A stretch of 64,000 bases of DNA from Mediterraneibacter gnavus ATCC 29149 (GTDB taxonomy: Bacteria; Bacillota; Clostridia; Lachnospirales; Lachnospiraceae): positions 2,065,001-2,129,000 of the forward strand of contig NZ_CP043051.1 of assembly GCF_008121495.1 (NCBI RefSeq), read 5' to 3'. This document shows positions 45,649 to 64,000 of this stretch, piece by piece. Numbering within the stretch: the stretch's first letter is position 1; every line of letters begins with the position of its first letter. The position numbers were made by a program, and so were the translations under genes. The notes under the pieces were generated by a model. That model ran no database searches, was not told the DNA's origin, and worked only from the letters and a program-made list of their open reading frames with translations.

Positions 45649-45686
45649 ACCATAAAAGCAAATGAGGACGGAAAGGAGCATAGAAC

Positions 45687-45881
45687 ATGGCGAAACGAAA
45701 GTACAAGCGTCTGCATTACGAGGACAGGCAGACCATAGAGGCTATGAGTAAGCAGGGCAGCAGTGTAAGTGATATTGCAGAGGTGCTGGGAACACACAGA
45801 GACACGATTTATAGAGAGTTCAAACGCTGCGGGCTTACATTGAAAACCTACACGGCAGCAGCGGGGCAGCAGGCACTATAA
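45687..45881 (+). CDS. Small helix-turn-helix protein (IS30-type HTH)
   Basis: A 64-residue protein: HYEDRQTIEAMSKQGSSVSDIAEVLGTHRDTIYREFKRC is the HTH_38 domain found at the N-terminus of IS30 transposases, standing alone here. AAAGGAG precedes the ATG. It is the first gene of the phage segment and could act as a DNA-binding regulator. The Ala/Gln-rich tail is unstructured. Confidence 0.75.
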   Translation: MAKRKYKRLHYEDRQTIEAMSKQGSSVSDIAEVLGTHRDTIYREFKRCGLTLKTYTAAAGQQAL

Positions 45882-45894
45882 AAAAGGGAAAATA

Positions 45895-46059
45895 ATGAAA
45901 TTAGAGGACGCATTAAAACAAAATCCATACGATAAAACCAGAGGCAGTAAAGGGGCGTACATAAGATATTTACGCTATACCGTGGACGGGTGGTATAGCA
46001 AGAAAAGCGAGGAAATAAGAAAGCAGATAGACCGAGATAAGATAACGAAAGAGAGGTAA
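45895..46059 (+). CDS. Small basic phage protein, unknown
   Basis: A 54-residue protein, MKLEDALKQNPYDKTRG ... DGWYSKKSEEIRKQIDRDKITKER. It begins 14 bases after the previous stop, and its last codons form the GAAAGAGAGG ribosome site of the next gene. No family is recognised. Confidence 0.6.
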   Translation: MKLEDALKQNPYDKTRGSKGAYIRYLRYTVDGWYSKKSEEIRKQIDRDKITKER

Positions 46060-46066
46060 AAGAGAT

Positions 46067-46294
46067 ATGACAAGAGAGGCACTTAAGAAATTAAATGAAA
46101 AGCAAATGAATTACTGTAAAACACTTTCAGCGCTGATTGATAGGGCAAAGATAAAAGGACTTAAAGAAGAGAACGAACGGAACAGAGGAAAACTTAGAGG
46201 GTTTTTAGAGTGCATGGAGCAAATGGAATTATTAAGCGGTTACGAAGTGAAAGCATTATATTTATGGTTCATATCTGGAAATAGAGGAGAATAA
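46067..46294 (+). CDS. Small phage protein, unknown
   Basis: A 75-residue helical, charged protein (REALKKLNEKQMNYCKTLSALIDRAKI). It is preceded by GAAAGAGAGG at the standard distance used across this phage. No recognisable motif. Confidence 0.65.
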   Translation: MTREALKKLNEKQMNYCKTLSALIDRAKIKGLKEENERNRGKLRGFLECMEQMELLSGYEVKALYLWFISGNRGE

Positions 46295-46316
46295 TAGGCG
46301 GCAGCAGCCGCCACGA

Positions 46317-46390
46317 GTGCCGTTAGTTCAGTTGGTTAGAGCAGCCGCCTCATAAGCGGCAAGTCGTGGGTTCAAGTCCCACACGGCACA
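46317..46390 (+). tRNA. Phage tRNA with anticodon CAT, probably tRNA-Ile2 (AUA-reading)
   Basis: A canonical cloverleaf folds. The acceptor is GTGCCGT / ACGGCAC, the D-stem GTTC / GAGC, and the anticodon stem GCCGC / GCGGC with loop CTCATAA (anticodon 46351-46353). The T-arm is GTGGG TTCAAGT CCCAC and the discriminator is A46390. CCA is not encoded. CAT can mean Met or the minor Ile tRNA whose C34 is changed to lysidine. Pairs C4-G69 and C5-G68 are the known determinants for the lysidine synthase TilS, and elongator tRNA-Met lacks them. Phage genes seem rich in ATA codons, which supports Ile2. Confidence 0.9.
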
Positions 46391-46625
46391 TTGCGTAGCA
46401 GGCATGGCGAGCCTGCGGCAGAGGGCAGCAGGCTAATAGCTGCAATCTGTATACCGTGGAAAAATAGCGGCGGTCATACCAGCCAGAAAGTATGTGGACA
46501 GTCAACAGGTTTTCAGTTGCTTTTTAATGCGAAAAGCAGCCCGCACGGTAAAACCAAACGCCAGAACAGGAGAGCGGCACACATGGAAAGACAGAGAGCG
46601 CCGCCGAAAGGAAGAGAGGCAGAGA
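46391..46625 (+). other. Spacer between the phage tRNA and the next gene
   Basis: About 235 bases with open frames in more than one phase but no ribosome site that I trust. An in-frame extension of the next gene back to 46494 or 46527 exists (MRKAARTVKPNARTGERH), but the start with a phage-type site is at 46626. I see no hairpin or repeat. Confidence 0.4.
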
Positions 46626-46964
46626 ATGGCAGCAGAGGCATTGATAGTAGAGGACGCATACCAGAGAGGCTATGCAGATGCCATAGCAGATATGCGAAAG
46701 AAAAAAGAGCAGAGGCGGCAGCGGGAGCAGGCAAAGAAAGCCCGCCGCTGGTATTTCATTAAGCAGAAAGCCTACGGGCTTGCAATGCTGGCAGTTACCG
46801 TGCTGGCGGTATGGGCGACAGAGGGCGACATAACAATAGCGGTTATTACCGTACCGCTGGGGCTTATGTGCCTTTTCAGTAAAAAAATGATGATAGTAGA
46901 CGACTACTATTTTGCTACAGAAGAGAGGGCAATACATGGACGAAAAAACAATACAGCGTATTAA
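46626..46964 (+). CDS. Phage membrane protein with two helices, unknown
   Basis: A 112-residue protein. A charged helix (EALIVEDAYQRGYADAIADMRKKKEQRRQREQ) is followed by two hydrophobic segments (GLAMLAVTVLAVWA and ITIAVITVPLGLMCLF) and a short tail. The start at 46626 follows GAGAGG, as in its neighbours. It overlaps the next gene by 29 bases. The function is unknown. Confidence 0.6.
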   Translation: MAAEALIVEDAYQRGYADAIADMRKKKEQRRQREQAKKARRWYFIKQKAYGLAMLAVTVLAVWATEGDITIAVITVPLGLMCLFSKKMMIVDDYYFATEERAIHGRKNNTAY

Positions 46965-47490
46965 AAAGCTGCAAGCACTGGCAGAGCGGGGCGTAGGCGG
47001 CGAGAAAACGACAGCGCAAAAGAAACTTGCAAAGCTGCTTAAGGATAACGGTATAAATTCCTTAGACGAACTGCAAAAGGAAGAGTATGAATATACGATA
47101 TTTTCCTACAACGGAAAGCACGAAATAAAACTGCTGCGACAGTGTATGTATAAGGTCATGGGTGCTAAATCTGACAGAACAGCATACAAGCCATACGGAC
47201 GGCGGCAGAAAATCGGCATATATTGCACGAAAGCGCAGAAAATCGAAATAGAGTTAGAGTTTGAATTTTACAGAAATGTATTTTATGAGGAATTAAGCAC
47301 ATTTATGGACGCTTTCATACAAGCACAGCAGATTTTCCCAGAAGATGCACCAACAGGAGACTACGACGAATTTAACGAAAGAGATATGAAAATAGCGTTT
47401 ATGGCTACTGGGATAGAACGGCGTAGCAGGACTGCAATGATAGAGGAAAGCGAGGCGGGAAATGAGAAAACGAAAACGACAAACAGTTAA
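46936..47490 (+). CDS. DUF2786-like phage protein
   Basis: A 184-residue protein. The N-terminus RIKKLQALAERGVGGEKTTAQKKLAKLLKDNGI matches the DUF2786 pattern of phage and plasmid proteins of unknown function. A longer alpha/beta part follows (YTIFSYNGKHEIKLLRQC). Its C-terminus contains EESEAGNE, written by the ribosome-site cassette of the next gene, which starts inside it at 47462. Confidence 0.75.
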   Translation: MDEKTIQRIKKLQALAERGVGGEKTTAQKKLAKLLKDNGINSLDELQKEEYEYTIFSYNGKHEIKLLRQCMYKVMGAKSDRTAYKPYGRRQKIGIYCTKAQKIEIELEFEFYRNVFYEELSTFMDAFIQAQQIFPEDAPTGDYDEFNERDMKIAFMATGIERRSRTAMIEESEAGNEKTKTTNS

Positions 47491-47833
47491 GAAACTGATA
47501 CAGTGCGTAGCCATTATAGCGGCAGGCGTGCTGGCAATCATTTTGTTTATGCTGGCTATCTGGTACAGAGGAAAGAACAGCGAGCCAGTAACAGACGAAC
47601 AGGTAGCAGCGCAGATGCAGCAGGCAGAGCCGCTGGTTATTGAAACACCAGAGACAGCCGCAGAGGGCAGCATAAGAGTATACGACTATGACGGCTGCTG
47701 TATTTATGCCTACTACGGCAAAATTCGGATAAACAACGACGGTAAGAACGGCAAGGACATTGACGTAGAGGCAATAGGCTACTTAGAGGGCTACCAAGAG
47801 CATAAGGACGAAAGCGAGGCAGGCAATGAGTGA
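47462..47833 (+). CDS. Single-pass phage membrane protein, unknown
   Basis: A 123-residue protein with basic N-terminus MRKRKRQTVKK, one hydrophobic helix (~residues 15-35) and an acidic outer part. It ends KDESEAGNE, coded by the next gene's start cassette. GAAAGCGAGG lies six bases before the ATG. No family is recognised. Confidence 0.7.
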   Translation: MRKRKRQTVKKLIQCVAIIAAGVLAIILFMLAIWYRGKNSEPVTDEQVAAQMQQAEPLVIETPETAAEGSIRVYDYDGCCIYAYYGKIRINNDGKNGKDIDVEAIGYLEGYQEHKDESEAGNE

Positions 47834-48167
47834 GGTATACATACGCAGCCAGAATAAAGAAAAGCTGTATAGACTGGGCGGTAATTACGCCTGCGTAGAG
47901 TACGGAGAGTACGAGGACGTAAAGAAAAAGAGAGGCGGCGCAGAGGCAGACAAAAAGCGCCACGTAATTTGCATAAGTGACGGGTGTTTAGAGGAAATCG
48001 GAGAGTATGCCACAAAAGAGCGCTGCTTAGAGGTTCTGGACGAGATACAGAAAGCGTGCGTAAGCTATCTGTTTACGGCTGGCGGCGCAGCCATAGTAAG
48101 GGGCGGCATGGACGTACAGCCGTTTGCAGTAGTAATACCGAGGCTGTACGAAATGCCGGAGAAATAG
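47826..48167 (+). CDS. Phage protein, unknown
   Basis: A 113-residue soluble protein (MSEVYIRSQNKEKLYRLGGNYACVEYGEYEDVKKK ... HVICISDGCLEEIGEYATKERCLEVLDEI). The pattern looks like a small alpha/beta fold often seen in phage early regions. It overlaps the upstream gene by eight bases. The function is unknown. Confidence 0.7.
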   Translation: MSEVYIRSQNKEKLYRLGGNYACVEYGEYEDVKKKRGGAEADKKRHVICISDGCLEEIGEYATKERCLEVLDEIQKACVSYLFTAGGAAIVRGGMDVQPFAVVIPRLYEMPEK

Positions 48168-48179
48168 GAGAGGCAGACA

Positions 48180-48503
48180 GTGACAGTAAAGGAATTTATA
48201 GGCACGCTGGAAAGTTCAGACCGCCTGCGCATTATCGAGGGCAAAGCAGAGGTTTACGTAGGGTATCTGGCAGCGTTCAGACCGTTTGCAGACCATGAGA
48301 TAAGCGAGGAATACCGAAAATACAGCGAGCATGAGGTAAAGAAGTTTAGGGCAGTGCCGGAGATAACGCACAGACGCTGGAAAGAGCTGGGGCTTATGAA
48401 ACCATTAGAGCCAGACCAGACAGCGCAGTATAAGTTTAGTGATTTGCAGATGTCACTTTACTACACCATATACATACAGGAAAGGAAAGGGCAGGAAGTA
48501 TGA
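48180..48503 (+). CDS. Phage protein, unknown (GTG start)
   Basis: A 107-residue protein beginning V(M)TVKEFIGTLESSDRLRIIEGKAEVYVGYLAAFRP, similar in shape to small phage proteins with a strand-turn-strand start. GGAGAGG lies upstream of the GTG. Its stop overlaps the next ATG (ATGA). Confidence 0.65.
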   Translation: MTVKEFIGTLESSDRLRIIEGKAEVYVGYLAAFRPFADHEISEEYRKYSEHEVKKFRAVPEITHRRWKELGLMKPLEPDQTAQYKFSDLQMSLYYTIYIQERKGQEV

Positions 48504-49228
48504 CAAAGAAAAAGCCGGATTTTTTACGGGATTTAGATACTGCAATCATGGACGAGCTTACAGGTGGCGGTATCAAGGAAAATGCAGCGGGACTGGTAGG
48601 AACGCTTACACAGATTAAGGAAATTAAGCAGCTATGCGGGCTGCCGTTTTGTGGTTATATGGCAAAGCTGGAAACGGTAAGACCAAGCGGCGTGCCGGAC
48701 GAGGTAACGGTAGTATTTGCAGAGGACGTACCATACAGGGATTGCAACGGCATAGAGTTTGACGTTATGCAGGAATTTGTAGAGGGCAGCAGGCTTTTAC
48801 TGACGGGCAAGGCGCAGACGCTTAAGGACTTCCAGAGCGGTAGACTGCTGGTATATATTCTGGCAGATTTTGTGGCGGTATCAGAAAAGGCAGTAGAGCA
48901 GGACGAGGTAGCAGTAAGAGGCATTATAGCAAATACGCCAACACACAGAGAAACGCCGAGAGGCAAGCGCATTACTGATATTACGGTAAGGGTAAGAAAT
49001 GAGCTTACAGGCGGCAGCTGCTATTTACCGTGCATCTGCTGGCAGGAACAGGCAGACGAGGCGGCGCAGTGGCAGCAGGGCGATACTGTAGAGCTGCTGG
49101 GGCGGTATCAGAGCCGCCAGTATGAAAAGGTGCTTGACGCAGCCACAGGAGAAAGAGAACAGCGTACAGCTTATGAGGTATCGGTACGGCTGATTAGAAG
49201 AAAGGAAGAGGCAGAAAATGAGCGTTGA
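48500..49228 (+). CDS. SSB/OB-fold-like phage protein
   Basis: A 242-residue protein. The second half (VAVRGIIANTPTHRETPRGKRITDITVRVRNELTGGSCYLPCICWQEQADEAAQWQQGDTVELLGRYQSR, in part) follows the OB-fold single-stranded DNA-binding pattern. The first half may hold a second, diverged OB-fold. It is distinct from the canonical SSB at 55055. A role in phage replication is likely. The SSB link is by pattern only. Confidence 0.65.
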   Translation: MTKKKPDFLRDLDTAIMDELTGGGIKENAAGLVGTLTQIKEIKQLCGLPFCGYMAKLETVRPSGVPDEVTVVFAEDVPYRDCNGIEFDVMQEFVEGSRLLLTGKAQTLKDFQSGRLLVYILADFVAVSEKAVEQDEVAVRGIIANTPTHRETPRGKRITDITVRVRNELTGGSCYLPCICWQEQADEAAQWQQGDTVELLGRYQSRQYEKVLDAATGEREQRTAYEVSVRLIRRKEEAENER

Positions 49229-49472
49229 ACGCATTGGTAAGGGCTATGTAAAAATCTGCGTGAGTGAGGAAGAGTTAGAGAACAGCATAGCTGGGCTTAG
49301 CCAGTTAAAACCTATTTTGCAAACGCAAGTAATGAAAGGGAATGGAAGAAACACAAAGCAGGGGCTTATTGACGCAGCAGAGCTGGGAAAACATTTTGAT
49401 ACGGCGATAGATGCAATGACTATGCTTTTGGCTGGGTTTAAGGAAGAAAGCGAGGTACAGAATGAAGAGTAA
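49218..49472 (+). CDS. Small phage protein, unknown
   Basis: An 84-residue protein (GYVKICVSEEELENSIAGLSQLKPILQTQVMKGNGRN), ending KEESEVQNEE from the next start cassette. It overlaps both neighbours. No family is recognised. Confidence 0.65.
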   Translation: MSVERIGKGYVKICVSEEELENSIAGLSQLKPILQTQVMKGNGRNTKQGLIDAAELGKHFDTAIDAMTMLLAGFKEESEVQNEE

Positions 49473-49782
49473 AACAATTTTAGGAGCAGACGGCGCAACA
49501 AAAATGCGACAGATTACAGTAGGGATACACGGAAAGGGCGGCGAGGCAGGCATAAAGGCAATACAGCAGCTTGCAGGCATGGTGGACAGCTTAAAGCAGT
49601 GCCAGACACCGCAGGAAGTATACGACAGATATTTACAGATTACGGGGTATTGTAAATGTTGCGTTGATTGTAATTTTATAGACCAAAAGGGAGCAGACGA
49701 GCTGATGTGCTTAGCAGCATATCTGGCAGGAAATGAACAGGCACGGGCAGAGGCACAACAGAAAGCGGGTAAAAAGGCATGA
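49462..49782 (+). CDS. Small phage protein with Cys cluster, unknown
   Basis: A 106-residue protein containing GYCKCCVDCNFIDQKGADELMCLA, a compact set of cysteines that could bind metal. GAAAGCGAGG lies six bases before the ATG. It ends four bases into the next gene. Confidence 0.65.
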   Translation: MKSKTILGADGATKMRQITVGIHGKGGEAGIKAIQQLAGMVDSLKQCQTPQEVYDRYLQITGYCKCCVDCNFIDQKGADELMCLAAYLAGNEQARAEAQQKAGKKA

Positions 49783-50306
49783 GAAAGGTTTATATATGCA
49801 GCCCATACAGGGCGAAAGACGGCGCAGAGCTGGACAGAAACATAGATTATGCGCAGCAGCTGACACGGCAGGCGTTAGAGGCGGGCTTAGCACCCATTAC
49901 GCCGCATTTATATATGACGCAGTGCATGGACGATAAAAAGCCGGAAGAGCGGGCAAGAGGTATGGCTGCGGGGCTTACGCTGCTGAAAGGCTGCGATTTT
50001 GTTATTGCTGGCGTGAAATACGGCATAACAGAGGAAATGGACAGAGAAATACATACAGCAAATATGCTGGGAATTGCGGTTATAGATGCAAACCAGATTA
50101 AACGGCATCTGGAATATGAGGAAAAGCGACAGGAGCGGGTAGCGAGCGACTACGCAAAGCTGCATAAGTGCAAGCATTGTTACGAGCGTAGATTATGTAG
50201 CCTTATGGGGCATGAGAACTGCTGTACCGCCAGCGCTTGCACAGCTGCATATAAACGGGCTTATGAGTATGCCTTAAGCCGCATAAGAGAGTGGCAGGAA
50301 ACATGA
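49779..50306 (+). CDS. DUF4406-like nucleoside 2-deoxyribosyltransferase-fold protein
   Basis: A 175-residue protein. MRKVYICSPYRAKDGAELDRNIDYAQQLTRQALEAGLAPITPHLYMTQCMDD is the DUF4406 start. CDFVIAGVKYGITEEMDREIHTANMLGI follows, which in the fold holds the catalytic Glu of deoxyribosyltransferases. A Cys-rich tail (CKHCYERRLCSLMGHENCC) is added. Nucleotide or nucleoside processing is possible; family members are common in phages and untested. Confidence 0.78.
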   Translation: MRKVYICSPYRAKDGAELDRNIDYAQQLTRQALEAGLAPITPHLYMTQCMDDKKPEERARGMAAGLTLLKGCDFVIAGVKYGITEEMDREIHTANMLGIAVIDANQIKRHLEYEEKRQERVASDYAKLHKCKHCYERRLCSLMGHENCCTASACTAAYKRAYEYALSRIREWQET

Positions 50307-50314
50307 AAAATAAA

Positions 50315-50346
50315 AGCGCCTACGGTGGGGAAACACCATAGGCGCT
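50315..50346 (+). other. Strong hairpin upstream of the replication gene
   Basis: AGCGCCTA-C-GGTG pairs with CACC-A-TAGGCGCT around a six-base loop (GGGAAA). No T-run follows, so it is not a usual terminator. The AT-rich segment behind it (50347-50400) contains the repeated word AAGCTAT. Lying just before an HUH replication gene it could hold the nick site, but that is inference. Confidence 0.45.
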
Positions 50347-50411
50347 AAGCTATACAGCTTTGAAATACTATAAAAATTATAAGCTATGTATGGCGCAAAG
50401 TCAAGAAATTT

Positions 50412-50432
50412 AACGGGCAGGCAGCCCGTTTT
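50412..50432 (+). terminator. Possible weak terminator
   Basis: AACGGGC pairs with GCCCGTT across a five-base loop, followed by a short T-run. It is 45 bases before the replication gene start. Confidence 0.4.
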
Positions 50433-50476
50433 AACACTTGATAAAAGTATTAACGAACCGACAGAGAGGTAGATAT

Positions 50477-51418
50477 ATGCCGTACGTAGAGAGGGTAACA
50501 AAAGCGGGAAATACGATAGAGATAGAGAGGTACTTTACCAGCAGATACAAAAAGAAAGGTATCAGCAGAGGGGATAAGGTAAAGCCAACAAAAGAAGAGC
50601 AGGAGAAAGTAAACACCAGACAGGCAGAGAGAAAGTTAAGGATACTCATAAATGCAAACTATGGCTATGGGGACTACCATTTAGTGCTTGACTATATCCG
50701 CAGGAAAGGAGAGTCGGACAGAACGCCGGAGCAGATGCGGCAGGACATAGACGTATTTTTGAGGGAGTGCAGAAAGGAGTACAGAAAAGCAGGGTTAGAG
50801 TTCAAATACATACACGTTATGGAGATAGGCAAGAAAGGTGCGAGGCATCACCACCTTGTAGTAAATAAAATTGACACAGAGATTTTACAGCGCTGCTGGT
50901 ATAAGGCATACGAGGGGCATAACAGAGTAAAGGTATTCCCTCTGGACGACAGCGGCAACTATGCAGAACTGGCAAGCTATTTAATCAAGTACACAGGAAC
51001 GCACAAAAAGGGTACTGACGGAGCATTACAGGGTAAGCGCTGGAATTGCAGCAAGAATTTAGTAAGACCAGAGCCAGAGTATCACATAATTTCAGACCGT
51101 GAGTATTTCAAGAAAGAGCCAAAGGCAATAAAGGGCTATTACGTGGACAAGAACAGCGTAAGCATGGGGGTACACAGCCCAGAGTATTACGGCTATGGGT
51201 ATTTAAGATACACCTTAGTAAAAATAACAGATAGGGGGGCTGAAATGCAGATAATCAAGGGCATTGCCATTGCAGCAGTGTTGATAATAGCCGGACTGCT
51301 GGCGCTGATTGTGGCAGCATATCTGGCGTTTAGAATTGCGGCGGCTATTTTTGAACAGCAAGAGAGCTGGAAAGACAGCGGCAGCAGAAAGGGCAGAAAA
51401 CATGATAGAAAAAATTAA
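50477..51418 (+). CDS. HUH-type rolling-circle replication protein with C-terminal membrane helix
   Basis: A 313-residue protein. LEFKYIHVMEIGKKGARHHHLVVNK contains the HUH metal motif and KYIHVMEIG the preceding strand. ELASYLIKYTGTHKK (~residues 170-185) fits the catalytic Tyr helix of single-Tyr Rep proteins like those of microviruses and small plasmids. After residue ~255 the frame runs through a G-run into AEMQIIKG and a long hydrophobic helix. An in-frame ATG at 51245 with AGGGGGG upstream could start a separate 57-residue membrane protein. The start at 50477 follows GAGAGG. Confidence 0.8.
   Translation: MPYVERVTKAGNTIEIERYFTSRYKKKGISRGDKVKPTKEEQEKVNTRQAERKLRILINANYGYGDYHLVLDYIRRKGESDRTPEQMRQDIDVFLRECRKEYRKAGLEFKYIHVMEIGKKGARHHHLVVNKIDTEILQRCWYKAYEGHNRVKVFPLDDSGNYAELASYLIKYTGTHKKGTDGALQGKRWNCSKNLVRPEPEYHIISDREYFKKEPKAIKGYYVDKNSVSMGVHSPEYYGYGYLRYTLVKITDRGAEMQIIKGIAIAAVLIIAGLLALIVAAYLAFRIAAAIFEQQESWKDSGSRKGRKHDRKN
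51245..51418 (+). CDS. Possible nested small membrane protein (internal start)
   Basis: 57 residues, MQIIKGIAIAAVLIIAGLLALIV and onward, with a single long hydrophobic helix and a basic tail. It is read in the same frame as the replication protein. AGGGGGG lies seven bases before the ATG. A one-base slip in the G-run (51234-51239) would separate the two products. Confidence 0.45.
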   Translation: MQIIKGIAIAAVLIIAGLLALIVAAYLAFRIAAAIFEQQESWKDSGSRKGRKHDRKN

Positions 51419-51647
51419 ATACTGGTTATTCCAGAAAGGCAAGGACTGTAAGCGCTGCTGCCTGCGGTGCAGATACTACGATATATGCCGCTGGGACGTA
51501 CTGGGAAATGCAGGACTACAAAGCGAGGAAACAATAACGCTTTTGGTGATAGAGAACAGCAAGCCGCATAAGGACGGGCTACCTTTTAGAATTTGCCAGT
51601 ATGTAGAATTTAAGCAGAGAGCGAGGCGAGAAAATGAGAAACTTTAG
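51402..51647 (+). CDS. Cysteine-rich small phage protein
   Basis: An 81-residue protein with CKRCCLRCRYYDICRWD (~residues 16-32) and a later FRICQYVEF, suggesting a zinc site. It starts 17 bases inside the previous gene and ends 14 bases into the next. Its C-terminus RARRENEKL is coded by the next gene's ribosome site. The function is unknown. Confidence 0.65.
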   Translation: MIEKIKYWLFQKGKDCKRCCLRCRYYDICRWDVLGNAGLQSEETITLLVIENSKPHKDGLPFRICQYVEFKQRARRENEKL

Positions 51648-52044
51648 ACTGGACGACGAAAGCGGGCATCAAGAGGCATTATTTAGCTGGGCTGCATACA
51701 GAACAGAGATTATGCCGGAACTGCAATATATGTATCATGTGCCAAACGGCGGCAAACGTGATAAAGCAACAGCAGCGGTGCTTAAGAGGCAGGGCGTAAA
51801 GGCTGGCGTGCCAGACATTATGCTACCAGCCGCAAGGGCTGGGTATCATGGGCTTTACATAGAGCTTAAGGCAGGCGAGAACACGACGACCAAGAAACAG
51901 AAAGAGTGGTTAGAGTATCTGCGGCAGCAGGGCTATTATACCGCCGTCTGCTACGGCTGGCAGCCAGCAGCGCAGCTGATAGAGCAGTATTTATTACATT
52001 CAGACGAGCTTACAAAAGAACAGGAAACAGTAACCATGCGTTAG
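51634..52044 (+). CDS. VRR-NUC domain nuclease
   Basis: A 136-residue stand-alone VRR-NUC protein. HQEALFSWAA supplies the first acidic residue, VPNGGKRDKATAAVLKRQGVKAGVPDIMLP contains the PD motif, and GLYIELKAG the E-x-K motif (~residues 80-90). This is a PD-(D/E)xK nuclease common in phage replication modules. The start follows GAGCGAGG. Confidence 0.9.
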   Translation: MRNFRLDDESGHQEALFSWAAYRTEIMPELQYMYHVPNGGKRDKATAAVLKRQGVKAGVPDIMLPAARAGYHGLYIELKAGENTTTKKQKEWLEYLRQQGYYTAVCYGWQPAAQLIEQYLLHSDELTKEQETVTMR

Positions 52045-52071
52045 GGGCGACGCAGGAAAGAGAGGCAAAGA

Positions 52072-52860
52072 ATGAAAACAATAAGCATTTTGAATTTAAA
52101 GGGCGGCGTAGCCAAGACCTTTACAGCGGCAAACATGGCGTATGAGCTTTACAGGCGAGGTTATAAGGTGCTGCTGATTGACAACGATAAGCAGGGAAAC
52201 TTAAGCAAGGCGTACAGCAGATATGATGCAGAGAACGTAGCACCAGTTACAAGGCTACTGGCTGGGGACTGGGAAAACGCAGACGAGCTGATACAGCATA
52301 CAGAGTATGAGGGTATCGACATTGTAACGGCGAATATGTCATTATTTGGGGCTACATGGAATTTAACCAAAGAGGACAGCGAAAACCAGATAGAGAGATA
52401 TAAAGCACTGGTATATGCAAAGATGCAGTATTACGGAGATTGCACCATATACGGCAAGTATGATTACTGCATCATTGATAACCCGCCGGATATTGGGCTT
52501 AATGTTGTAAATGCGCTGGCAATCACGGACGAGGTAATAGTACCCGTAAAGGTGGACGAGGACGCTTTAGAGGGGCTGGACATTGTGACAGAGCAGATAG
52601 AGGACGCAAAGGCATTTAACCCAGCATTAAAGCTGGCAGGCGTGCTGATTACGTCATACCAGAACACAGACGGCGAGGCAGCAGGCGTAGAGTGGCTGGA
52701 ACAAAAGACAGATTTTAATATTTTGGGTATTATTCGGTATTCCAAGAAAGTAGCAGAAAATACTTTCATGCGTAAGCCGATTTATGAGTATAGCCCATGC
52801 TGCGGAGCGGCGCAGGGATACAAGAAATTTGTAACAGCGTATACAGGGAAAGAGAGGTAG
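52072..52860 (+). CDS. parA: ParA-type partition ATPase
   Basis: A 262-residue ParA/Soj ATPase. The deviant Walker A is LKGGVAKTFTAANMA (~residues 10-17), Walker A' is VLLIDNDKQGNLSKAY, and Walker B is YCIIDNPPDIGLNVVNAL. There is no N-terminal DNA-binding domain. Paired with ParB at 53045, it should segregate or position phage DNA. GAAAGAGAGG lies six bases before the ATG. Confidence 0.93.
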   Translation: MKTISILNLKGGVAKTFTAANMAYELYRRGYKVLLIDNDKQGNLSKAYSRYDAENVAPVTRLLAGDWENADELIQHTEYEGIDIVTANMSLFGATWNLTKEDSENQIERYKALVYAKMQYYGDCTIYGKYDYCIIDNPPDIGLNVVNALAITDEVIVPVKVDEDALEGLDIVTEQIEDAKAFNPALKLAGVLITSYQNTDGEAAGVEWLEQKTDFNILGIIRYSKKVAENTFMRKPIYEYSPCCGAAQGYKKFVTAYTGKER

Positions 52861-56932: not shown

Positions 56933-56934
56933 AG

Positions 56935-57037
56935 GGGGCGAATACCGAGGGGGATACCCTAAAATTACCCTACGGGCGTGCGCACGGGTGGTGTAGGGGG
57001 TGTGGTGCGGCGCAGGAATGGAAAGCGGGGTAAAGGA
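56935..57037 (+). other. Probable cos (packaging) region
   Basis: The 100-base noncoding gap between HNH and the small terminase is G-rich and unlike its surroundings. CCCTAC (56968-56973) and GTAGGG (56993-56998) are inverted around the palindrome GTGCGCAC (56978-56985). In HK97-type phages with HNH, the cohesive-end site lies here. The cut positions cannot be read off. Confidence 0.5.
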
Positions 57038-57391: not shown

Positions 57392-57397
57392 GCAATA

Positions 57398-59053
57398 TTG
57401 CCGCCTTATCGAAATTATATCTATGAGTACCACGCAAAGATTACAAGCGGCGAAATCATAGCGGGAAAATGGATAAAGAAAATATACGAAATCATTATAA
57501 ACGGGCTGCAAAAGCAGGAGTATTTTTTTAATGCAAAGGCTGCGAATAAGGCTATACGGTTCATAGAGAACTTTTGCCACCACAGCAAGGGACGTAATGA
57601 TTTAATCAAGTTGGAGCTATGGCAGAAAGCCATAGTTTCTGTTATTTTTGGCATACAAGACGCAGAAAAAATACGTATTTTCCGTGAAATTTTTATTGTA
57701 ATTGGCAGAAAAAACGGAAAAAGTTTATTTGCATCTGCGATTATTGCATATATGGCGTACTTAGAGCCGGAGTATGGACAAGAAATATACTGCTTAGCAC
57801 CGAAATTAGACCAAGCGGCGCTGGTGTACGACGGATTTTATCAAATGGTACAGGCAGAGGACGAGTTAGCGGAGCTGGCAAAGAAACGGCGCAGCGATAT
57901 TTATATTGCGGAGAGCAACACGGTAATAAAACCGATTGCTTTTAATGCCAAGAAGTCAGACGGATTTAACCCACAGCTTGTGGTATGTGATGAAATGGCA
58001 GCATGGAGCGGGGACGCTGGACTAAAACAGTATGAGGTTATGAAATCCGCTTTAGGCGCACGTACTCAACCTATGATATTGAGCATAAGCACTGCCGGAT
58101 ATATCAACGACAGTATTTATGATGAACTAATGAAACGTAGCACAAGTTTCTTGAAAGGAAACAGCAAAGAGCGCAGGCTATTACCATTCCTTTACATGAT
58201 TGATGATGTGGAGAAGTGGAACGACATAGACGAACTGAAAAAGGCTAACCCTAACATGGGTGTATCCGTAAAAGAAAGTTTCTTTATGGACGAGATAGCC
58301 GTAGCAGAGGGCAGCTTAAGTAAAAAAGCAGAGTTCCTTACAAAGTATTGCAATATCAAGCAGAACAGCTCTATTGCATGGCTGGAATATCAGACAGTAG
58401 AGAACGCCGGAGTAGAAAAGACCTTAGAAGACTTTAGGGACTGCTACGCAGTGGGCGGTATCGACTTAAGCCAGACAACAGACCTAACAGCAGCAAGCGT
58501 GGTTATTCAGAAAGACGGCACGCTATATGCGTTTACACAGTTCTTTATGCCACGGGGCAGGCTGGAATACCTACAGGCTACAGACGGCGTGCCGTATGAC
58601 ATATTTGTAAGAAAGGGACTGATAACCTTAAGCGGCGAGAATTACGTAGACTACCACGACGTTTACAGCTGGTTTACTATGCTGCTGGAAAATTACGGTA
58701 TACGACCTCTGAAAATCGGCTACGACAGATACAGCGCCCAGTACCTTATTACCGATATGGCAAATTATGGTTTTCACATGGACGACGTTTACCAAGGCGA
58801 AAACCTTACACCAGTTATACGGGAGTTTGAGGGCATCATAAAAGACGGCGATTTTAAGATTGCCGACAACAATTTACTAAAGACACATTTCTTAAATGTT
58901 GCGCTTAAGCACAACATGGAAACAAGAAAATTCAGATCTATAAAAATCGAGCAGCGGGCGCATATCGACGGCTTTGTATCTGTCATAGATGCAATGACCG
59001 TGCGGCAGAAATACTGGGAAGAGTGCGGCGAGCTGCTTAAAAATGCCGCATAG
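57398..59053 (+). CDS. terL: Terminase large subunit
   Basis: A 551-residue packaging motor. The ATPase has IVIGRKNGKSLFASAII (Walker A, ~residues 105-115) and LVVCDEMAAWSG (Walker B). The nuclease domain has GGIDLSQTTDLTAASVV (first Asp, ~residue 360) and IGYDRYSAQYL. It belongs to the Terminase_1 family of HK97-like phages. The predicted start is TTG at 57398, since YIYEYHAKITSGEIIAGKWI is the normal family N-terminus. Confidence 0.95.
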   Translation: MPPYRNYIYEYHAKITSGEIIAGKWIKKIYEIIINGLQKQEYFFNAKAANKAIRFIENFCHHSKGRNDLIKLELWQKAIVSVIFGIQDAEKIRIFREIFIVIGRKNGKSLFASAIIAYMAYLEPEYGQEIYCLAPKLDQAALVYDGFYQMVQAEDELAELAKKRRSDIYIAESNTVIKPIAFNAKKSDGFNPQLVVCDEMAAWSGDAGLKQYEVMKSALGARTQPMILSISTAGYINDSIYDELMKRSTSFLKGNSKERRLLPFLYMIDDVEKWNDIDELKKANPNMGVSVKESFFMDEIAVAEGSLSKKAEFLTKYCNIKQNSSIAWLEYQTVENAGVEKTLEDFRDCYAVGGIDLSQTTDLTAASVVIQKDGTLYAFTQFFMPRGRLEYLQATDGVPYDIFVRKGLITLSGENYVDYHDVYSWFTMLLENYGIRPLKIGYDRYSAQYLITDMANYGFHMDDVYQGENLTPVIREFEGIIKDGDFKIADNNLLKTHFLNVALKHNMETRKFRSIKIEQRAHIDGFVSVIDAMTVRQKYWEECGELLKNAA

Positions 59054-59070
59054 AAAGGAGTGTAAACGGC

Positions 59071-60321
59071 ATGAAATTTTTAGACTATCTTTTTCATGGC
59101 AAAGAATTAAAAGCCATAGGTAATTATTTCAAAATGCTGAACGGATACAGCCCGACGTTTACCAGCTTTAGCGGCGGCGTGTATGAAATGGATTTAACCA
59201 GAACGGCTATAAATAATTTTGCCACACATTGCAGCAAGCTAAAGCCGGAGATAGAGGGCAGCGCCCTTAAGTCGCTGGAAAAGACATTGCAGCATAAACC
59301 CAACTACTTCATGGATACAACAAAATTTATAAAGCGTCTGGCAACGTATGTAGCGGTGGAACACACCGCTTTTATTATACCTATCGAGGATGAATACGGG
59401 CGCTTGTGTGGCTGGTATCCGTTGCGGGCTGAACGCTGCGAGGTGGTAGAGAGTGAGGGGCAGTTATATTTACGGTATCTGTTTGCAAATGGCAGCTATG
59501 GAGCTATTGAGTTTGAGCGTGTAGGCATTATGACAGACTTTGAATATAAAGACGACCTTTTCGGAGAGGACAACAGCACGCTTGCACCAACTATGCAGCT
59601 GATACATACGCAGAATGAGGGAATTATAAACGCTGTAAAAAATTCTGCAAATATCCGTTTTCTGGCAAAGGTGGCAAATATGCTGAAACCAGAGGATATA
59701 AAGAAAGAGCGGAAACGCTTTACAGAGGATAACTTAAGCGCCGACAACGATAGCGGCATGATTATTTATGATAACAAGTTTAGTGAGCTGAAACAGGTAG
59801 AAAGCAAACCATATACACCAAACGCATTGCAGATGCAGCACATACAGGAAAATGTATGTACGCATTTTGGTACAAATATGGATATTCTGCAAAATAAATT
59901 TGATGAAAATACGTGGAACGCTTACTACGAGGGGAAAATAGAACCGTTTGCAATACAGCTATCGCTTGTTATGACAAATATGAGCTTTACAGAGAGAGAA
60001 AGAGCCTGCGGCAATGCTATTTTCTTTTCTGCAAACCGCCTACAATACGCCAGCAACGCCACAAAGTTAAGCGTAAGTACACAGCTTTTCGACCGTGCGC
60101 TACTGAACAGAAACGGCGTAATGGATATATGGAACATGGCACACGTTGAGGACGGGGAAAAGTATTATATCCGAAAGGAATATACAGAGGTAAGCGAGCT
60201 GCACAAAGGAAGTGAGCAGCCAGTTATCATACAGCAAGTACCGCAGCAGACAGAACCAGCAGCAGGAGAAGAGCCGCAGAACGGACAGGAAGAGAAAGAG
60301 GGTGTAAATAATGCCAGTTAA
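59071..60321 (+). CDS. Phage portal protein, HK97 family
   Basis: A 416-residue portal. The order and motifs fit: NGYSPTFTSF, ITFTRTAINNFATH-like segment near residue 50, FIIPIEDEYGRLCGWYPLRAERCEV, and NEGIINAVKNSANIRFLAKV. The tail is rich in Gln/Glu/Pro. It forms the ring through which DNA enters the head. AAAGGAG precedes the ATG. It overlaps the protease gene by 11 bases. Confidence 0.92.
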   Translation: MKFLDYLFHGKELKAIGNYFKMLNGYSPTFTSFSGGVYEMDLTRTAINNFATHCSKLKPEIEGSALKSLEKTLQHKPNYFMDTTKFIKRLATYVAVEHTAFIIPIEDEYGRLCGWYPLRAERCEVVESEGQLYLRYLFANGSYGAIEFERVGIMTDFEYKDDLFGEDNSTLAPTMQLIHTQNEGIINAVKNSANIRFLAKVANMLKPEDIKKERKRFTEDNLSADNDSGMIIYDNKFSELKQVESKPYTPNALQMQHIQENVCTHFGTNMDILQNKFDENTWNAYYEGKIEPFAIQLSLVMTNMSFTERERACGNAIFFSANRLQYASNATKLSVSTQLFDRALLNRNGVMDIWNMAHVEDGEKYYIRKEYTEVSELHKGSEQPVIIQQVPQQTEPAAGEEPQNGQEEKEGVNNAS

Positions 60322-60910
60322 GAAAGAGCGGGAATATAGAACGCTGGTAGCGCCTCTGGCTGCGCAGAGTTCCGGCGAAAAGCGTTTACAGTCGGAGTGC
60401 TACGTAGAGGGCTACGCTACTACATTTAATGCGCCATACCTTTTATATGAGTTTGAGGACGGCACAAAGATTTACGAAAGAATAGACGCACACGCATTAG
60501 ACAGCGCAGACATGAGCGACGTTATCATGCAGTACGACCATGAAGGCAGAGTATTTGCCAGACAGTCAAATAATACGCTGATTTTAGAGCCGGACGTAAA
60601 GGGGCTTTTTGTGGCAGCAGACTTAAGCCGGACAGACTTAGCCCGTGGGCTGTATCAGGACATAAGCGCAGGAATGATTACTAAAATGTCATGGGCGTTT
60701 ACAGTGGCAGAGGAAAGTTACGACAGAGAAACACATACAAGAACAATTTTGAAAATCAAAAAGGTTTATGATGTATCAGCCGTGAGCATTCCGGCAAATA
60801 ACGATACTGAAATAAGCGCCCGTGCTTTTGCGAGTAGGAGTTACGAGCGAGAGCGGCAGGAGTTGCTTAAGAGGCGGGCAGCAATACTAAAGATTAAGGC
60901 GAGCTTATAA
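60311..60910 (+). CDS. Prohead protease, HK97 (U35/S78) family
   Basis: A 199-residue protease. CYVEGYATTFNAPYLLYEFEDGTKIYERIDAHALDSADMSDVIMQYDHEGRVFAR (in part) holds the catalytic His, and GLYQDISAGMITKMSWAF (~residues 115-135) the nucleophilic Ser. It cleaves the capsid N-terminal delta domain during head maturation. Confidence 0.94.
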   Translation: MPVKKEREYRTLVAPLAAQSSGEKRLQSECYVEGYATTFNAPYLLYEFEDGTKIYERIDAHALDSADMSDVIMQYDHEGRVFARQSNNTLILEPDVKGLFVAADLSRTDLARGLYQDISAGMITKMSWAFTVAEESYDRETHTRTILKIKKVYDVSAVSIPANNDTEISARAFASRSYERERQELLKRRAAILKIKASL

Positions 60911-60941
60911 AAACCAAAAACAAAAAAGGAGAACACAGATT

Positions 60942-62174
60942 ATGAGATTAAAGGAAATTGAGGCAAGATTAGCCGAAATCAAAGAAGAGCTTAACACCAG
61001 AGCGGCAGAGCTTACAGACGAGGAAATTACAAAACTGGAAACAGAGGTAACAGACTTGCAGGAAGAGCGCACCGCTTTACTGGCAGCGGCAGAGAAACGC
61101 AAAAAGCTGCTTGAAAGAATTGCAGCAGGAGAGCCGACAGGTGGAGCGGGAGCAGATACCACGTTGCTTAGAAATTTCAAGGGAGCAGGCGGCGCAGGAG
61201 CAGGAGAACCAGAGGACAAATACGACACTATGGCATACAGAAAAGCGTTTATGAATTATGTATGCAGAGGCGTTGCTATTCCGGCAGAGTACAGAGCAGC
61301 TGAAACCACCACCACAGCAGACAGTGGCGCTGTAATTCCGACAACTATTATGAATGAAATCATTCAGAAACTGGAAAGCTACGGCAGCATTTATGCAAAG
61401 GTGCGCAAGATTAACGTACAGGGCGGCGTTTCCATTCCGATTGCAGACTTAAAGCCTACTGCGCACTGGATTACAGAGGAAAAGAGCAGCGACGACCAGA
61501 AAGCATCTGCTAAAAATTCCGTAACATTCAATTATTACGGTTTGGAGTGCAAAATTTCCCAGAGCATTTTAGCGAATGTAGTAACGCTGAAAATGTTTAC
61601 TGATTTGTTTGTACCTATGGCAACAGAGGCAATGGTAAAGGCTATTGAAATTGCTATTTTCAACGGTACAGGCGAGGGGCAGCCGCTGGGCGTTCTGAAA
61701 GACAGCAGGGTAACAGCTGTAATTACTCTGACACCGGAAGAGTACGCAAGCTGGAACGGCTGGCACAAGGTAAAAGGAAAAATGAAAAAGGCGTACAGAA
61801 ACGGCAGTTTTGTTATGAACCAGTCCACTTTTGATACTGGCATTGACGGTATGGAAGATGAGAATGGGCAGCCTATCGGACGCACAAACTACGGCGTAAA
61901 CGGAGAGGAAACATACCGTTTCATGGGTAAGAACGTAGAAACAGTAGAGGACGACGTTTTACCGAGCTGGGACGACGCAAACGAGGGCGACGTAATCGCA
62001 GTATTTATGAATTTCTCCGATTACGTTATCAATACCAACATGGAAATGCAGGTAGTGAAGTGGACAGACCACGACAACAACAAGATTAAGAATAAGTGCT
62101 TAATGGTTGTGGACGGCAAAGTAGCTGACGCTGCGGGCATTATCTTAGTTAAAAAGGGCGTAACAGCAGTGTAA
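60942..62174 (+). CDS. Major capsid protein, HK97 fold
   Basis: A 410-residue capsid protein. Residues 1-70 are a coiled-coil delta domain (KEIEARLAEIKEELNTRAAELTDEEITKLETEV) expected to be removed by the protease. The mature part begins near the Ala/Gly-rich segment at ~residues 75-95. IPTTIMNEIIQKLESYGSIYAKVRKINV, and FNGTGEGQPLGVLKD are hallmark segments. An AAAGGAG site precedes the ATG. Confidence 0.95.
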   Translation: MRLKEIEARLAEIKEELNTRAAELTDEEITKLETEVTDLQEERTALLAAAEKRKKLLERIAAGEPTGGAGADTTLLRNFKGAGGAGAGEPEDKYDTMAYRKAFMNYVCRGVAIPAEYRAAETTTTADSGAVIPTTIMNEIIQKLESYGSIYAKVRKINVQGGVSIPIADLKPTAHWITEEKSSDDQKASAKNSVTFNYYGLECKISQSILANVVTLKMFTDLFVPMATEAMVKAIEIAIFNGTGEGQPLGVLKDSRVTAVITLTPEEYASWNGWHKVKGKMKKAYRNGSFVMNQSTFDTGIDGMEDENGQPIGRTNYGVNGEETYRFMGKNVETVEDDVLPSWDDANEGDVIAVFMNFSDYVINTNMEMQVVKWTDHDNNKIKNKCLMVVDGKVADAAGIILVKKGVTAV

Positions 62175-62190
62175 GAAAGCGAGGCAGGCA

Positions 62191-62805
62191 ATGAAAGGAC
62201 ATTTAGACGTAAAGCAGTTGGAAAGCTATAATAAAGCAGATTTGCAGGAACTGGCAAAGCAGCTGGGCGTAGATGCAGAGGGAACAAAGAAAGAAATTGC
62301 TGCACGCTGCGCAGCCGTCGAGGTAGACATACCAGACGACAGCGAGCTTACGGAAGAGGATAAAAAAGTAGCAGCCGAGGCAGCGGCAGAGGCAGCAGCC
62401 AAAGCCGAAGAGGAAAAGGCAGCGGCAGAGGCGGCAGCCAAAGCCGAAGAGGAAAAGGCAGCGGCAGAGGCGGCAGCCAAAGCCGAAGAGGAAAAGGCAG
62501 CGGCAGAGGCGGCAGCCAAAGCCGAAGAGGAAAAGGCAGCGGCAGAGGCGGCAGCCAAAGCCGAAGAGGAAAAGGCAGCGGCAGAGGCGGCAGCCAAAGC
62601 CGAAGAGGAAAAGGCAGCGGCAGAGGCAGTAGCCAAAGCCGAGGAAGAAAAGAAAGCAGCAGGGCTGGTAAAAGTGAAAGCAAAGCGCCGTTTTCTTGAC
62701 AAGGAATTAAACCAGATTAAGGATACGGGGGATATTTACACAGTAAGCAGAGAGCGTGCAGCAGTTCTGGAAGAGGCAGGCGTAGCAGTAGTAATGACAG
62801 AGTAA
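62191..62805 (+). CDS. Phage head-region protein with Ala/Glu/Lys helix repeats
   Basis: A 204-residue protein in three parts. An N-terminal SAP/HeH-like helix pair (YNKADLQELAKQLGVDAEGTKKEIAARC) comes first. Then come about seven near-identical 13-residue units (AAAEAAAKAEEEK) that should form one long rigid helix. The C-terminal strand domain (VKVKAKRRFLDKELNQIKDTGDIYTVSRERAAVLEEAGVAVV) is typical of proteins found between capsid and connector genes. A decoration or assembly role is likely but not shown. GAAAGCGAGG lies six bases before the ATG. Confidence 0.75.
   Translation: MKGHLDVKQLESYNKADLQELAKQLGVDAEGTKKEIAARCAAVEVDIPDDSELTEEDKKVAAEAAAEAAAKAEEEKAAAEAAAKAEEEKAAAEAAAKAEEEKAAAEAAAKAEEEKAAAEAAAKAEEEKAAAEAAAKAEEEKAAAEAVAKAEEEKKAAGLVKVKAKRRFLDKELNQIKDTGDIYTVSRERAAVLEEAGVAVVMTE
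62389..62655 (+). repeat. Tandem 39-bp coding repeats
   Basis: Near-perfect units of 39 bases (core GCCAAAGCCGAAGAGGAAAA) code for the 13-residue helix module. The inner copies are identical at DNA level, so the array is young or kept uniform by slippage. Confidence 0.9.
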
Positions 62806-62822
62806 GAAAGAGGGTGCAGGCT

Positions 62823-63173
62823 ATGGCAGCAGATACCACAACATTAACCGAGAAGATGCGGGCGGCGCTGCGTATAAGCAGCACCAGTGAGAAAATCACA
62901 GAGGAAATAAACGACTGTATAGCCGCCTGCAAAATGGATTTGCAGGACGTAGGCGTAAAGAAACTGGATGAAACAGACGCACTGATTATTAGGGCAATTA
63001 CCTTATACTGCAAGGCAGAGTTTGGCTATTCTGATAAATCAGAGCAGTTTTGGAAGTCTTACGAGTGCTTGAAAACTCATTTAAGCCTATCCAGTGAATA
63101 CACAGGCGGCGAAACGCCGGACAGTACAGACGACGAGGTAAACGAGGAAGATATCAAGAACTTATTCGGATAG
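62823..63173 (+). CDS. Head-tail connector protein (gp6-like)
   Basis: A 116-residue protein, LTEKMRAALRISSTSEKITEEINDCIAACKMDLQDVGVKKLDETDALIIRAITLYCKAEFGYSD, the helical pattern of HK97 gp6-type connectors. The ATG at 62823 was chosen; a GTG three codons earlier is possible. It has an acidic C-terminal tail. Confidence 0.85.
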   Translation: MAADTTTLTEKMRAALRISSTSEKITEEINDCIAACKMDLQDVGVKKLDETDALIIRAITLYCKAEFGYSDKSEQFWKSYECLKTHLSLSSEYTGGETPDSTDDEVNEEDIKNLFG

Positions 63174-63187
63174 GAGAAACAGACAGA

Positions 63188-63901
63188 ATGGCGATTAAAA
63201 GAGTAACTTATAATACGCTGTCTTATCTGGTAGCGGAAATTAAAGACCGCTACGCAGAGAAAAGCGCCATAGGAGCGCTGGGGGGGCTTGATAAGGTAGC
63301 GGTAGAAAATCTGGAAGACGATTTGAAAAAACTTATAAACGGCAAGGCAAATGCAGCCACCACGCTTGCGGGTTACGGCATCACAGACGGAATGACAGCA
63401 ACGGAGATAGCAAGCGCTATTTCCACGGCGATTGCTGGAACAGACCACTTAAGCCGTGTAATGGTAGACAGTACGGCAGATATTAACGTAGCGGCAGACG
63501 GTGCAGAAAAGAAAATCTACATGGTAAAGAATACCGACGGAGAGGCAGGAAACCTTTACAGTGAGTACATGGTAATTGACGGAAAGCTGGAAAAGGTAGG
63601 CGACTGGAAAGTAGACTTAAGCAGCTATGCCAAGACCACAGAAGTAACGGCAGCCATTGCAAATGCGCTGACAGCATACGCCAAGACCGCAGACGTTACT
63701 AAGGCAATCAATGCAGCAGTAGCGGGGCTTATCCAGCTGGACGACTTAAGCGTAGCGTCTACGGGGGCAGGCAATGTAGTAACGGGGCTTGCGTATGACA
63801 ACAAGACAGGAAAATTTACAGTAACCAAAGGACTTACTGCACTTACAGAGGCAGACTTTACAGAGATTACGCAGCAGGAAGTAAAAGCCATGTTTGCGTA
63901 A
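63188..63901 (+). CDS. Fibre-like phage structural protein
   Basis: A 237-residue protein. The N-terminal YNTLSYLVAEIKDRYAEKSAIGALGGLDKV is followed by beta/Ala-rich segments TTLAGYGITDG and YAKTTEVTAAIANALTAYAKTADVTKAI, the short pseudo-repeats typical of tail or head fibres. It sits directly after the connector, where head-closure genes are normally found, so a head fibre or decoration is as likely as a tail fibre. Confidence 0.65.
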   Translation: MAIKRVTYNTLSYLVAEIKDRYAEKSAIGALGGLDKVAVENLEDDLKKLINGKANAATTLAGYGITDGMTATEIASAISTAIAGTDHLSRVMVDSTADINVAADGAEKKIYMVKNTDGEAGNLYSEYMVIDGKLEKVGDWKVDLSSYAKTTEVTAAIANALTAYAKTADVTKAINAAVAGLIQLDDLSVASTGAGNVVTGLAYDNKTGKFTVTKGLTALTEADFTEITQQEVKAMFA

Positions 63902-63914
63902 GTGAGGTACTGGT

Positions 63915-64000
63915 ATGAGGTGGTTTAGCCTTGCCAGCTTAAAGGCGCTGGTATCAGAGATAACAGCCAGAGAAAACAGCAATATGCAGGCTGTAAATGA
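63915..64000 (+). CDS. Phage gene, 5' fragment cut by window end
   Basis: 28 codons are visible, MRWFSLASLKALVSEITARENSNMQAVN, with no in-frame stop before the edge. The ASLKALVSEI segment echoes TLSYLVAEI at the start of the previous gene, hinting at a related structural protein. GTGAGG lies upstream. Confidence 0.5.
   Translation, partial: MRWFSLASLKALVSEITARENSNMQAVN

Follow-up and report, generated by a model that had tools for sequence, protein, structure and literature searches.

The window analysed here is a stretch of 64,000 nucleotides of the Mediterraneibacter gnavus ATCC 29149 chromosome (positions 2065001-2129000 of a 3.55-Mb single-contig genome), and its right part carries the left half of a prophage from which dozens of short recognition words of restriction enzymes are absent or nearly absent. 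In coordinates extended past the window, the purged element occupies 45527-81019 (35,493 bp, delimited by word counts per region), with its right end beyond the window end. It begins after a gene read as topA (43393-45495), and the last host GATC before the element and the first past it are located at 45306 and 81236, respectively. The purge sets in exactly where the prophage does, at 45527, and the first-pass annotation was right that it marks the boundary between phage and host. Both ends are bordered by the direct repeat AACAAGAGGAAATTG, with a duplication of about 15 bp and an exact repeat of 16 bp, the right copy being found at extended positions 81020-81034, 17 kb beyond the window end. 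Flanking repeats of 15-17 bp, unrelated in sequence, were observed in seven of the eight prophages of the family examined, this one included, which points to insertion at unrelated sites; no flanking repeat was found in the eighth (G015). The repeat is read here as a putative target-site duplication of about 15 bp, which is long for an enzyme with IS30-type domains. The ends of the element are conserved across the seven related prophages compared (L162-L177). The features within the window are provided in Table 1; most of the word counts were made on 45527-81018, one base less than the element.

Table 1. Features of the prophage in the window, with the evidence for each.
Feature	Position	Strand	Evidence
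Left copy of the repeat read as target-site duplication, AACAAGAGGAAATTG	45512..45526	.	repeat flanking the element on both sides
Left half of the purged prophage	45527..64000	+	word counts per region; ends kept in relatives
64-amino-acid helix-turn-helix protein, like transposase N-terminus	45687..45881	+	Pfam HTH_38, E=2.9e-12
tRNA-Met gene within the prophage	46317..46390	+	ARAGORN
Protein with single-strand-binding domain	48500..49228	+	Pfam SSB, E=1.8e-9
Rolling-circle-type replication protein	50438..51418	+	Pfam REP_ORF2-G2P, E=6.1e-13
VRR-NUC nuclease	51634..52044	+	Pfam VRR_NUC, E=2.1e-10
ParA-type ATPase	52072..52860	+	Pfam AAA_31, E=2.1e-37; CbiA, E=4.6e-21
ParB-like protein with C-terminal DUF3850	53045..54313	+	Pfam DUF3850, E=1.3e-27
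Single-stranded DNA-binding protein	55055..55450	+	Pfam SSB, E=9.2e-22
HNH endonuclease	56633..56932	+	Pfam HNH, E=6.6e-7
Terminase large subunit, query for finding relatives	57398..59053	+	tblastn to annotated terminases
Sole GATC in the window part of the prophage	58935..58938	.	direct count
Portal protein, putative	59071..60321	+	gene order as annotated in Arawn
Prohead protease, putative	60311..60910	+	gene order as annotated in Arawn
Major capsid protein, putative	60942..62174	+	gene order as annotated in Arawn

A direct count revealed a single GATC in 45651-64000 and 330 in 1-45650, as the first-pass annotation had reported, and the three host copies that it cited within 22201-22320 are present at 22245, 22266 and 22285. 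Its expectation of 60-70 GATC holds for base composition (61.9) and is too high under Markov models (19.6 first-order, 18.9 second-order), because the neighbour pairs that make up GATC are also uncommon in the segment. Equal depletion of the adjacent host sequence, which would have overturned the claim, was not observed, since the flank is normal with 330 GATC vs 306 by the second-order model. For the whole prophage, the null was a set of 200 synonymous-codon shuffles with proteins and codon usage fixed, covering 49 open frames and 31.9 of the 35.5 kb; against 51.9 GATC expected and a minimum of 37 in the shuffles, the prophage contains five, a depletion far beyond chance. The first-pass annotation missed that GGCC, CGCG and CTAG are completely absent from 45651-64000, where 58, 49 and 25 are expected, respectively.

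The purge extends to a large share of all short words in the whole prophage. A total of 435 of the 4096 hexamers are absent (shuffle mean 12.2, maximum 22), as are 41 of the 64 palindromic hexamers (shuffle mean 4.5, maximum 9), whereas in each of three equally long host stretches only 37-68 hexamers and 7-9 palindromic hexamers are missing. The words with zero counts are GGCC (shuffle mean 77.1), CGCG (83.5), CTAG (30.6), CCNGG (51.4), GGNCC (32.8), GGNNCC (39.9), RCATGY (25.5), CTGCAG (23.8), CTCAG (44.9) and CTGRAG (43.8), with GANTC (3 vs 50.5) and CCTTC (1 vs 80.4) near zero and CCGG half depleted (42 vs 82.7). Many longer restriction words are absent too, besides those of 4 bp, and a greedily chosen set of 36 motifs accounts for 393 of the 435 absent hexamers, leaving 42 over. 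Following Rusinov et al. in the thresholds but using our own synonymous-shuffle expectations, we called a word eliminated when it was expected at least 15 times and its observed count fell below 0.1 of that figure; by this measure, 21 of 66 palindromic restriction words are eliminated, 16 of them completely, together with 20 of 222 non-palindromic ones. Eliminated words include CTCAG, CTGAAG, CTCCAG and GGATG, which are listed for enzymes that we take to be of Type IIG or IIS.

The purge is specific to certain words. GCGC (159 vs a shuffle mean of 134.9), AGCT (176 vs 172.0), TGCA (206 vs 200.7) and GCNGC (447 vs 343.6) are intact, CATG is intact in the whole prophage, and TCGA is not purged (28 vs 22 expected). 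GTAC, AGCT, TGCA, AATT, TTAA, GCNGC and GTNAC were purged in none of the 64 scored rows of the family tree, and since the five plain four-letter palindromes among them are unpurged in all 64, a general avoidance of palindromes was ruled out. Sixteen non-palindromic words were tested for strand; seven reach an expectation of at least 5 per strand, and each of these is depleted on both, the other nine being uninformative because their expectation is below 5 on a strand. For those seven words, a strand-biased avoidance as for Type III enzymes was thereby rejected, and their depletion fits recognition of double-stranded DNA and not strand-bound signals. Among the unlisted words is GAAGC (1 vs 92 expected), which is depleted on both strands here and in several relatives and in all four extensions GAAGCN (0/34, 1/15, 0/21 and 0/22). 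The restriction table used lists the longer GAAGCY but not GAAGC itself, nor CCTCC or CCTGA. On the strength of its depletion, GAAGC is a candidate for an undescribed restriction specificity.

The purge was compared with the host chromosome and with other phages. In the host flank, 0 of 65 palindromic and 0 of 203 non-palindromic words are eliminated. Among individual phages, the eliminated palindromic words amount to 6/73 in T7, 1/74 in lambda (40 kb), 5/76 in Mu, 12/82 in Faecalibacterium phage Mushu, 2/42 in C. difficile phage CD2301, 12/63 in Arawn, 21/62 in nd12 (25.8 of 32.8 kb) and 1/50 in a second prophage of the same host. We also compared families under a Markov model, using words with an expectation of at least 12 and loci no shorter than 12 kb, trimmed to 21.7 kb. 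The median eliminated palindromic fraction is 0.283 in this phage family (55 loci, interquartile 20-33%), 0.019 in the family of the host's other prophage (38 loci, maximum 0.167), 0.075 in the Mushu family (30 loci, maximum 0.187), and 0 both in the distant kin of Mushu (13) and in the CD2301-terminase family (44 loci). The highest single locus among the four comparison sets reaches 18.7%, and this phage family is an outlier. The 55 loci were chosen without the distant terminase relatives (L065, L067-L071, L073-L081, L113, L115, L117, L118, L121, L123 and L124) and without nd12 and Arawn; of these distant relatives, L077, L113, L115, L117 and L118 were scored separately and are weakly purged or unpurged. 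Fifteen of 16 sampled 20-kb chromosome stretches have, between them, 3 eliminated words out of 828. The remaining one (L147, positions 2500000-2519999 of the host's own chromosome) has 23 of 57 eliminated, and its missing set differs from that of the prophage, with GCNGC missing (1/60) and GAAGC present (63/59), which makes a mutation pattern of the host itself improbable as the cause. This stretch holds genes of a Tn916-type conjugative element, a label given from a reading of its open frames.

Different members of the family have lost different sets of words. Among loci of at least 10 kb, relatives with terminases 76-99% identical purge different sets. Five of them (L094, L095, L096, L119 and L025) keep GATC at 1.8-2.1 of expectation and lack CTGCAG, with GGCC and GGNCC absent or nearly so, whilst L085 and L092 lack GATC, GGCC, CGCG and CCGG altogether. 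CATG is absent in L108 and nearly absent in L053, and ACGT is absent in L116 and L010. A terminase tree was built from 95 distinct sequences, drawn from 122 rows with at least 450 aligned residues, and purge states were scored on it, leaving out loci at 0.15-0.4 of expectation, shorter than 8 kb, or with an expectation below 10. GATC is unpurged in 39 of its 58 scored rows, many of which purge other words. The fewest state changes required are seven for GATC (19 rows purged, 39 not) and for CCNGG, six for CCGG and RCATGY, and five for GGCC, CGCG and GANTC; with 28 of the 92 inner branches starred and 30 open, these numbers are approximate. Three loci, L098, L104 and L105, are less purged than their tree neighbours, L098 being partial for most scored words and L104 and L105 standing on long terminase branches; they are perhaps stranded prophages that are regaining sites.

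Selection against new sites continued until recently, as observed in copies 97% identical to the prophage over about 21 kb. Only 37 differences from L072 create a purged word vs 129 expected, with control words at 105 vs 90, and for L084 the values are 25 vs 106, with controls at 92 vs 73. Further copies show the same direction more weakly, at 174/317 for L114, 57/118 for L002, 17/35 for L003, 278/446 for L085 and 351/505 for L086, the control words being 220/207, 102/76, 29/23, 310/308 and 345/316, respectively. Lachnospiraceae bacterium GAM79 harbours a copy that is 97.5% identical, and Faecalicatena faecalis a mosaic one in which blocks reach up to 98%. Where L094, L087, L025 or L086 has an aligned site that the prophage lacks, the differences, read without polarity, fall at several motif positions and comprise both transitions and transversions; about half of those in coding sequence are synonymous. 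For GGCC, CGCG, CCGG and CCNGG, every specified position differs in at least one comparison.

The prophage belongs, by its terminase, with Butyrivibrio phages Arawn and Idris (Arawnvirus; PMC7372960) and Phage nd12 (OR777946), the closest named phages, to whose terminases it is 74-75% identical; its window part (45600-64000) had no megablast match in the phage collection. Arawn and nd12 are purged like the prophage and, unlike it, both keep GATC. Arawn differs further in having a tyrosine integrase, and nd12 in an adenine methyltransferase and a transposase annotated as IS30 family. In the accessible text of the Arawn paper (PMC7372960), the terms restriction, transposase, methyl and palindrom were not found. 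The transposase at the right end of the prophage matches the Pfam families HTH_38, over the cut-off, and rve (E=1.2e-6), under the curated cut-off, and homologues lie 21-24 kb from the terminase start in the four relatives compared (G001, G005, G008 and G013). The prophage shares with Mu-type transposable phages a DDE-type transposase, unrelated insertion sites and a target duplication. It differs from them in the HTH_38 and rve domains, as in IS30-type enzymes, in a head gene order as in the siphovirus Arawn, and in a duplication of about 15 bp, that of Mu being 5 bp and that of IS30 2-3 bp. No match to the transposase was obtained for the genomes of three unpurged loci (L115, L117 and L118), nor for the genomes or records of three purged ones (L109, L045 and L026), the last two of which may be fragments.

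Several other genes of the prophage deserve mention. The 64-amino-acid protein near the left end is similar to the transposase, whose gene lies at the opposite end, in the DNA-binding N-terminus only, and such N-terminal-only matches were found in the genomes of many relatives; the small protein is perhaps a regulator of transposition or immunity. A rolling-circle-type replication gene, parA and the ParB-like gene are grouped (50438-54313) in this transposase-bearing phage, so the phage may also exist as a plasmid, and a replication route other than transposition is possible. The ParB-like label rests on a reading of the sequence and the place after ParA, as Pfam gave no match for it. In the head-gene region, the predicted protein at 62191-62805 has an in-frame repeat array of the type KAEEEKAAAEAAA. 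The prophage also carries a diversity-generating retroelement (L082, 10237-13164), with an Mtd-like target, a bAvd gene and a reverse transcriptase region that is split into frames 12103-12504 and 12646-13164, RVT_1 being matched in the second only.

Enzymes matching three of the four words that were tested occur in the host family, presumably Lachnospiraceae, to judge by the named hosts of related prophages. Over-cut-off matches to DpnII were obtained in 28 of 298 genomes (three of them fragmentary or weak), and matches to HaeIII and Eco47II in seven each and to TaqI in none. We take DpnII, HaeIII and Eco47II to recognise GATC, GGCC and GGNCC, and TaqI to recognise TCGA. The presence of the first three, whose words are purged, and the lack of TaqI, whose word is not, fit the restriction reading, and exposure to GATC cutters elsewhere is plausible. 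The host itself has three apparently intact C5 methyltransferase genes and a broken one; one intact gene adjoins a McrB-like gene, labelled as a Type II restriction enzyme by PADLOC, and the other two lie among genes read as mobile elements. Two N6_N4_Mtase matches were also found in the host, one of them partial and the other inside the prophage of L133. A GATC methylation-dependent process, the second cause proposed by the first-pass annotation, found no support in the host, which has no match to MethyltransfD12 (PF02086, the Dam/DpnM type) or DpnII and in whose flank GATC is normal. Protection in place of a purge was considered for the relatives: 16 loci with a close match to the nd12 methyltransferase or with an NPPY/DPPY motif keep GATC, all of them in the clade with Oscillospiraceae-type hosts; the DPPY protein of nd12 itself matches N6_N4_Mtase. 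Other loci of that clade keep GATC with no such gene seen, and the presence of the gene follows the tree. No such gene was found within the fetched stretches of the nearer GATC-keeping relatives (the L094 group, L086 and L029), and L077, L103 and L105 have weak matches (31-42%).

Taken together, we consider that dozens of Type II recognition words were removed from this phage by continuing selection from the restriction systems of many hosts, with a probability of about 0.83. A temperate, transposase-bearing phage of a family borne by Clostridia, with many members from the gut, would on entry into a cell with a restriction system have most of the genomes carrying its sites cut, and the variants that had lost those sites by point mutation would leave descendants. 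Where many hosts with different enzymes are met, dozens of words would be removed, GATC included, and the missing set of each lineage would fit its own recent hosts, so that the sets would change along the tree. The breadth and specificity of the purge, its turnover among relatives and the scarcity of differences that create a motif are all accounted for by selection from many restriction systems. We infer that restriction exerts the selection on all of these words and that the hosts of the lineages change. Host breadth as the driver is a reasonable suggestion by analogy with broad-host-range plasmids, which behave in this way, and integration at arbitrary sites may widen the host range and thereby help the purge.

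Several observations weigh against this account of selection by many hosts' restriction systems. The genome of the host itself has no match to DpnII, HaeIII, Eco47II, TaqI, MethyltransfD12 or N6_Mtase, and the pair of C5 methyltransferase and McrB-like gene is the only restriction locus recognised in it. The test of enzyme families spans only four words. DpnII was expected to be rarer outside the host family; this was not borne out, its prevalence being similar in a wider class sample (31 of 393 genomes, some from the same family), so that the enzyme counts leave unexplained why the relatives with Oscillospiraceae-type hosts retain GATC. The motifs overlap mutually, are dictionary-assigned and had been selected as depleted here, and the single-base losses of GATC fall at positions 1, 3 and 4 and never at the A, which is unexplained. 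The transposase is not claimed as the cause of the purge: Arawn is purged with a tyrosine integrase, so a transposase is not needed for it, in L085, which is strongly purged, the transposase matches of the genome are no more than weak (31% identity), and L105 and L113 possess the transposase and are weakly purged.

Among the alternatives, the one that fares best is that restriction accounts for only part of the purged words, the others being avoided on different grounds, for instance as transcription or replication signals, as CRISPR (clustered regularly interspaced short palindromic repeats) adjacent motifs or as targets of unknown nucleases. GAAGC, CCTCC and CCTGA, which the restriction table does not list, and the 42 absent hexamers beyond the 36-motif set speak in its favour; the seven non-palindromic words with adequate expectation, depleted on both strands, speak against it, and we regard it as unlikely, at about one chance in four. 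A mutational process without selection, either deamination of methylated cytosine or a host-specific bias, is far less probable. The purged words are mostly GC-rich, and the restriction of GATC losses to three of four positions would suit such a process. However, GGCC, CGCG, CCGG and CCNGG differ at all specified positions with transversions common, a fate of lost sites on which deamination was rejected, and the Tn916-type element on the same chromosome is purged of a different set, while the other sampled chromosome stretches are almost free of eliminated words. Still slightly less credible is exposure to GATC-cutting restriction alone (the DpnII, MboI or Sau3AI type), as the first-pass annotation had proposed. 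Its appeal to selection by restriction is well supported, and the near absence of GATC and the DpnII matches in the family agree with it; as a full account it is refuted, because GATC is merely one of 21 eliminated palindromic words, the loss of GGCC, CGCG, CTAG, CCNGG and further words is still more complete, and close relatives retain GATC while purging other words. A by-product of amino-acid or codon bias is refuted outright, since coding-strand composition does cut the GATC expectation from 62 to 19, but the shuffles still give 52 GATC, 77 GGCC, 84 CGCG and 51 CCNGG.

The phenomenon itself, restriction-site avoidance, is known, and its extent here is unusual for a temperate phage. T7 is known for restriction-site loss and resembles the prophage in GATC (6 vs 124 expected) and CCWGG (2 vs 53 expected); it differs in that none of its six eliminated palindromic words is eliminated completely. 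In the available sections of the survey by Rusinov et al. 2018 (PMC6286503), Type II words are likewise eliminated (ratio <0.1) from double-stranded DNA phages and restriction is held responsible, elimination being reported in 7.5% of cases; temperate phages are said to have a notably smaller share of their sites eliminated, and Type I and Type IIG sites not to be avoided. Unlike in that survey, a temperate family here has a median of 28% of testable palindromic words eliminated, and CTCAG, CTGAAG, CTCCAG and GGATG are eliminated as well; the percentages are not directly comparable, as the survey scored known enzymes of the host species with another expectation. A review, in the part available, describes Type II sites as depleted in virulent phages (PMC12707154). 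The plasmids of Shaw, Rocha and MacLean 2023 (PMC10359461), as described in the sections available, share a stronger avoidance where more hosts and enzymes are met; unlike them, the prophage has near-zero counts, words of 4, 5 and 6 bp are removed jointly, and the sets of close relatives differ. A literature search, with most subscription journals outside its reach, found no account of the purging of many words in these phages.

The loss of sites is the textbook answer to restriction. The survey, in its available sections, indicates that temperate phages rarely complete it (PMC6286503), and here it is near-complete for dozens of words. As the loss has continued until recently and differs between close relatives, the speed at which phages adapt to the restriction enzymes of a community becomes testable, and so does the question of whether phage sequence alone can tell the enzymes of uncultured hosts. 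At about even odds, this temperate gut phage family consists of restriction-transparent genomes, with approximately 20-40 restriction words in each lineage that continuing selection holds near zero at once and that are swapped as hosts change; the missing set would then record the enzymes of recent hosts and could name undescribed specificities, GAAGC first. The purge also suggests which words matter for moving DNA into such bacteria.

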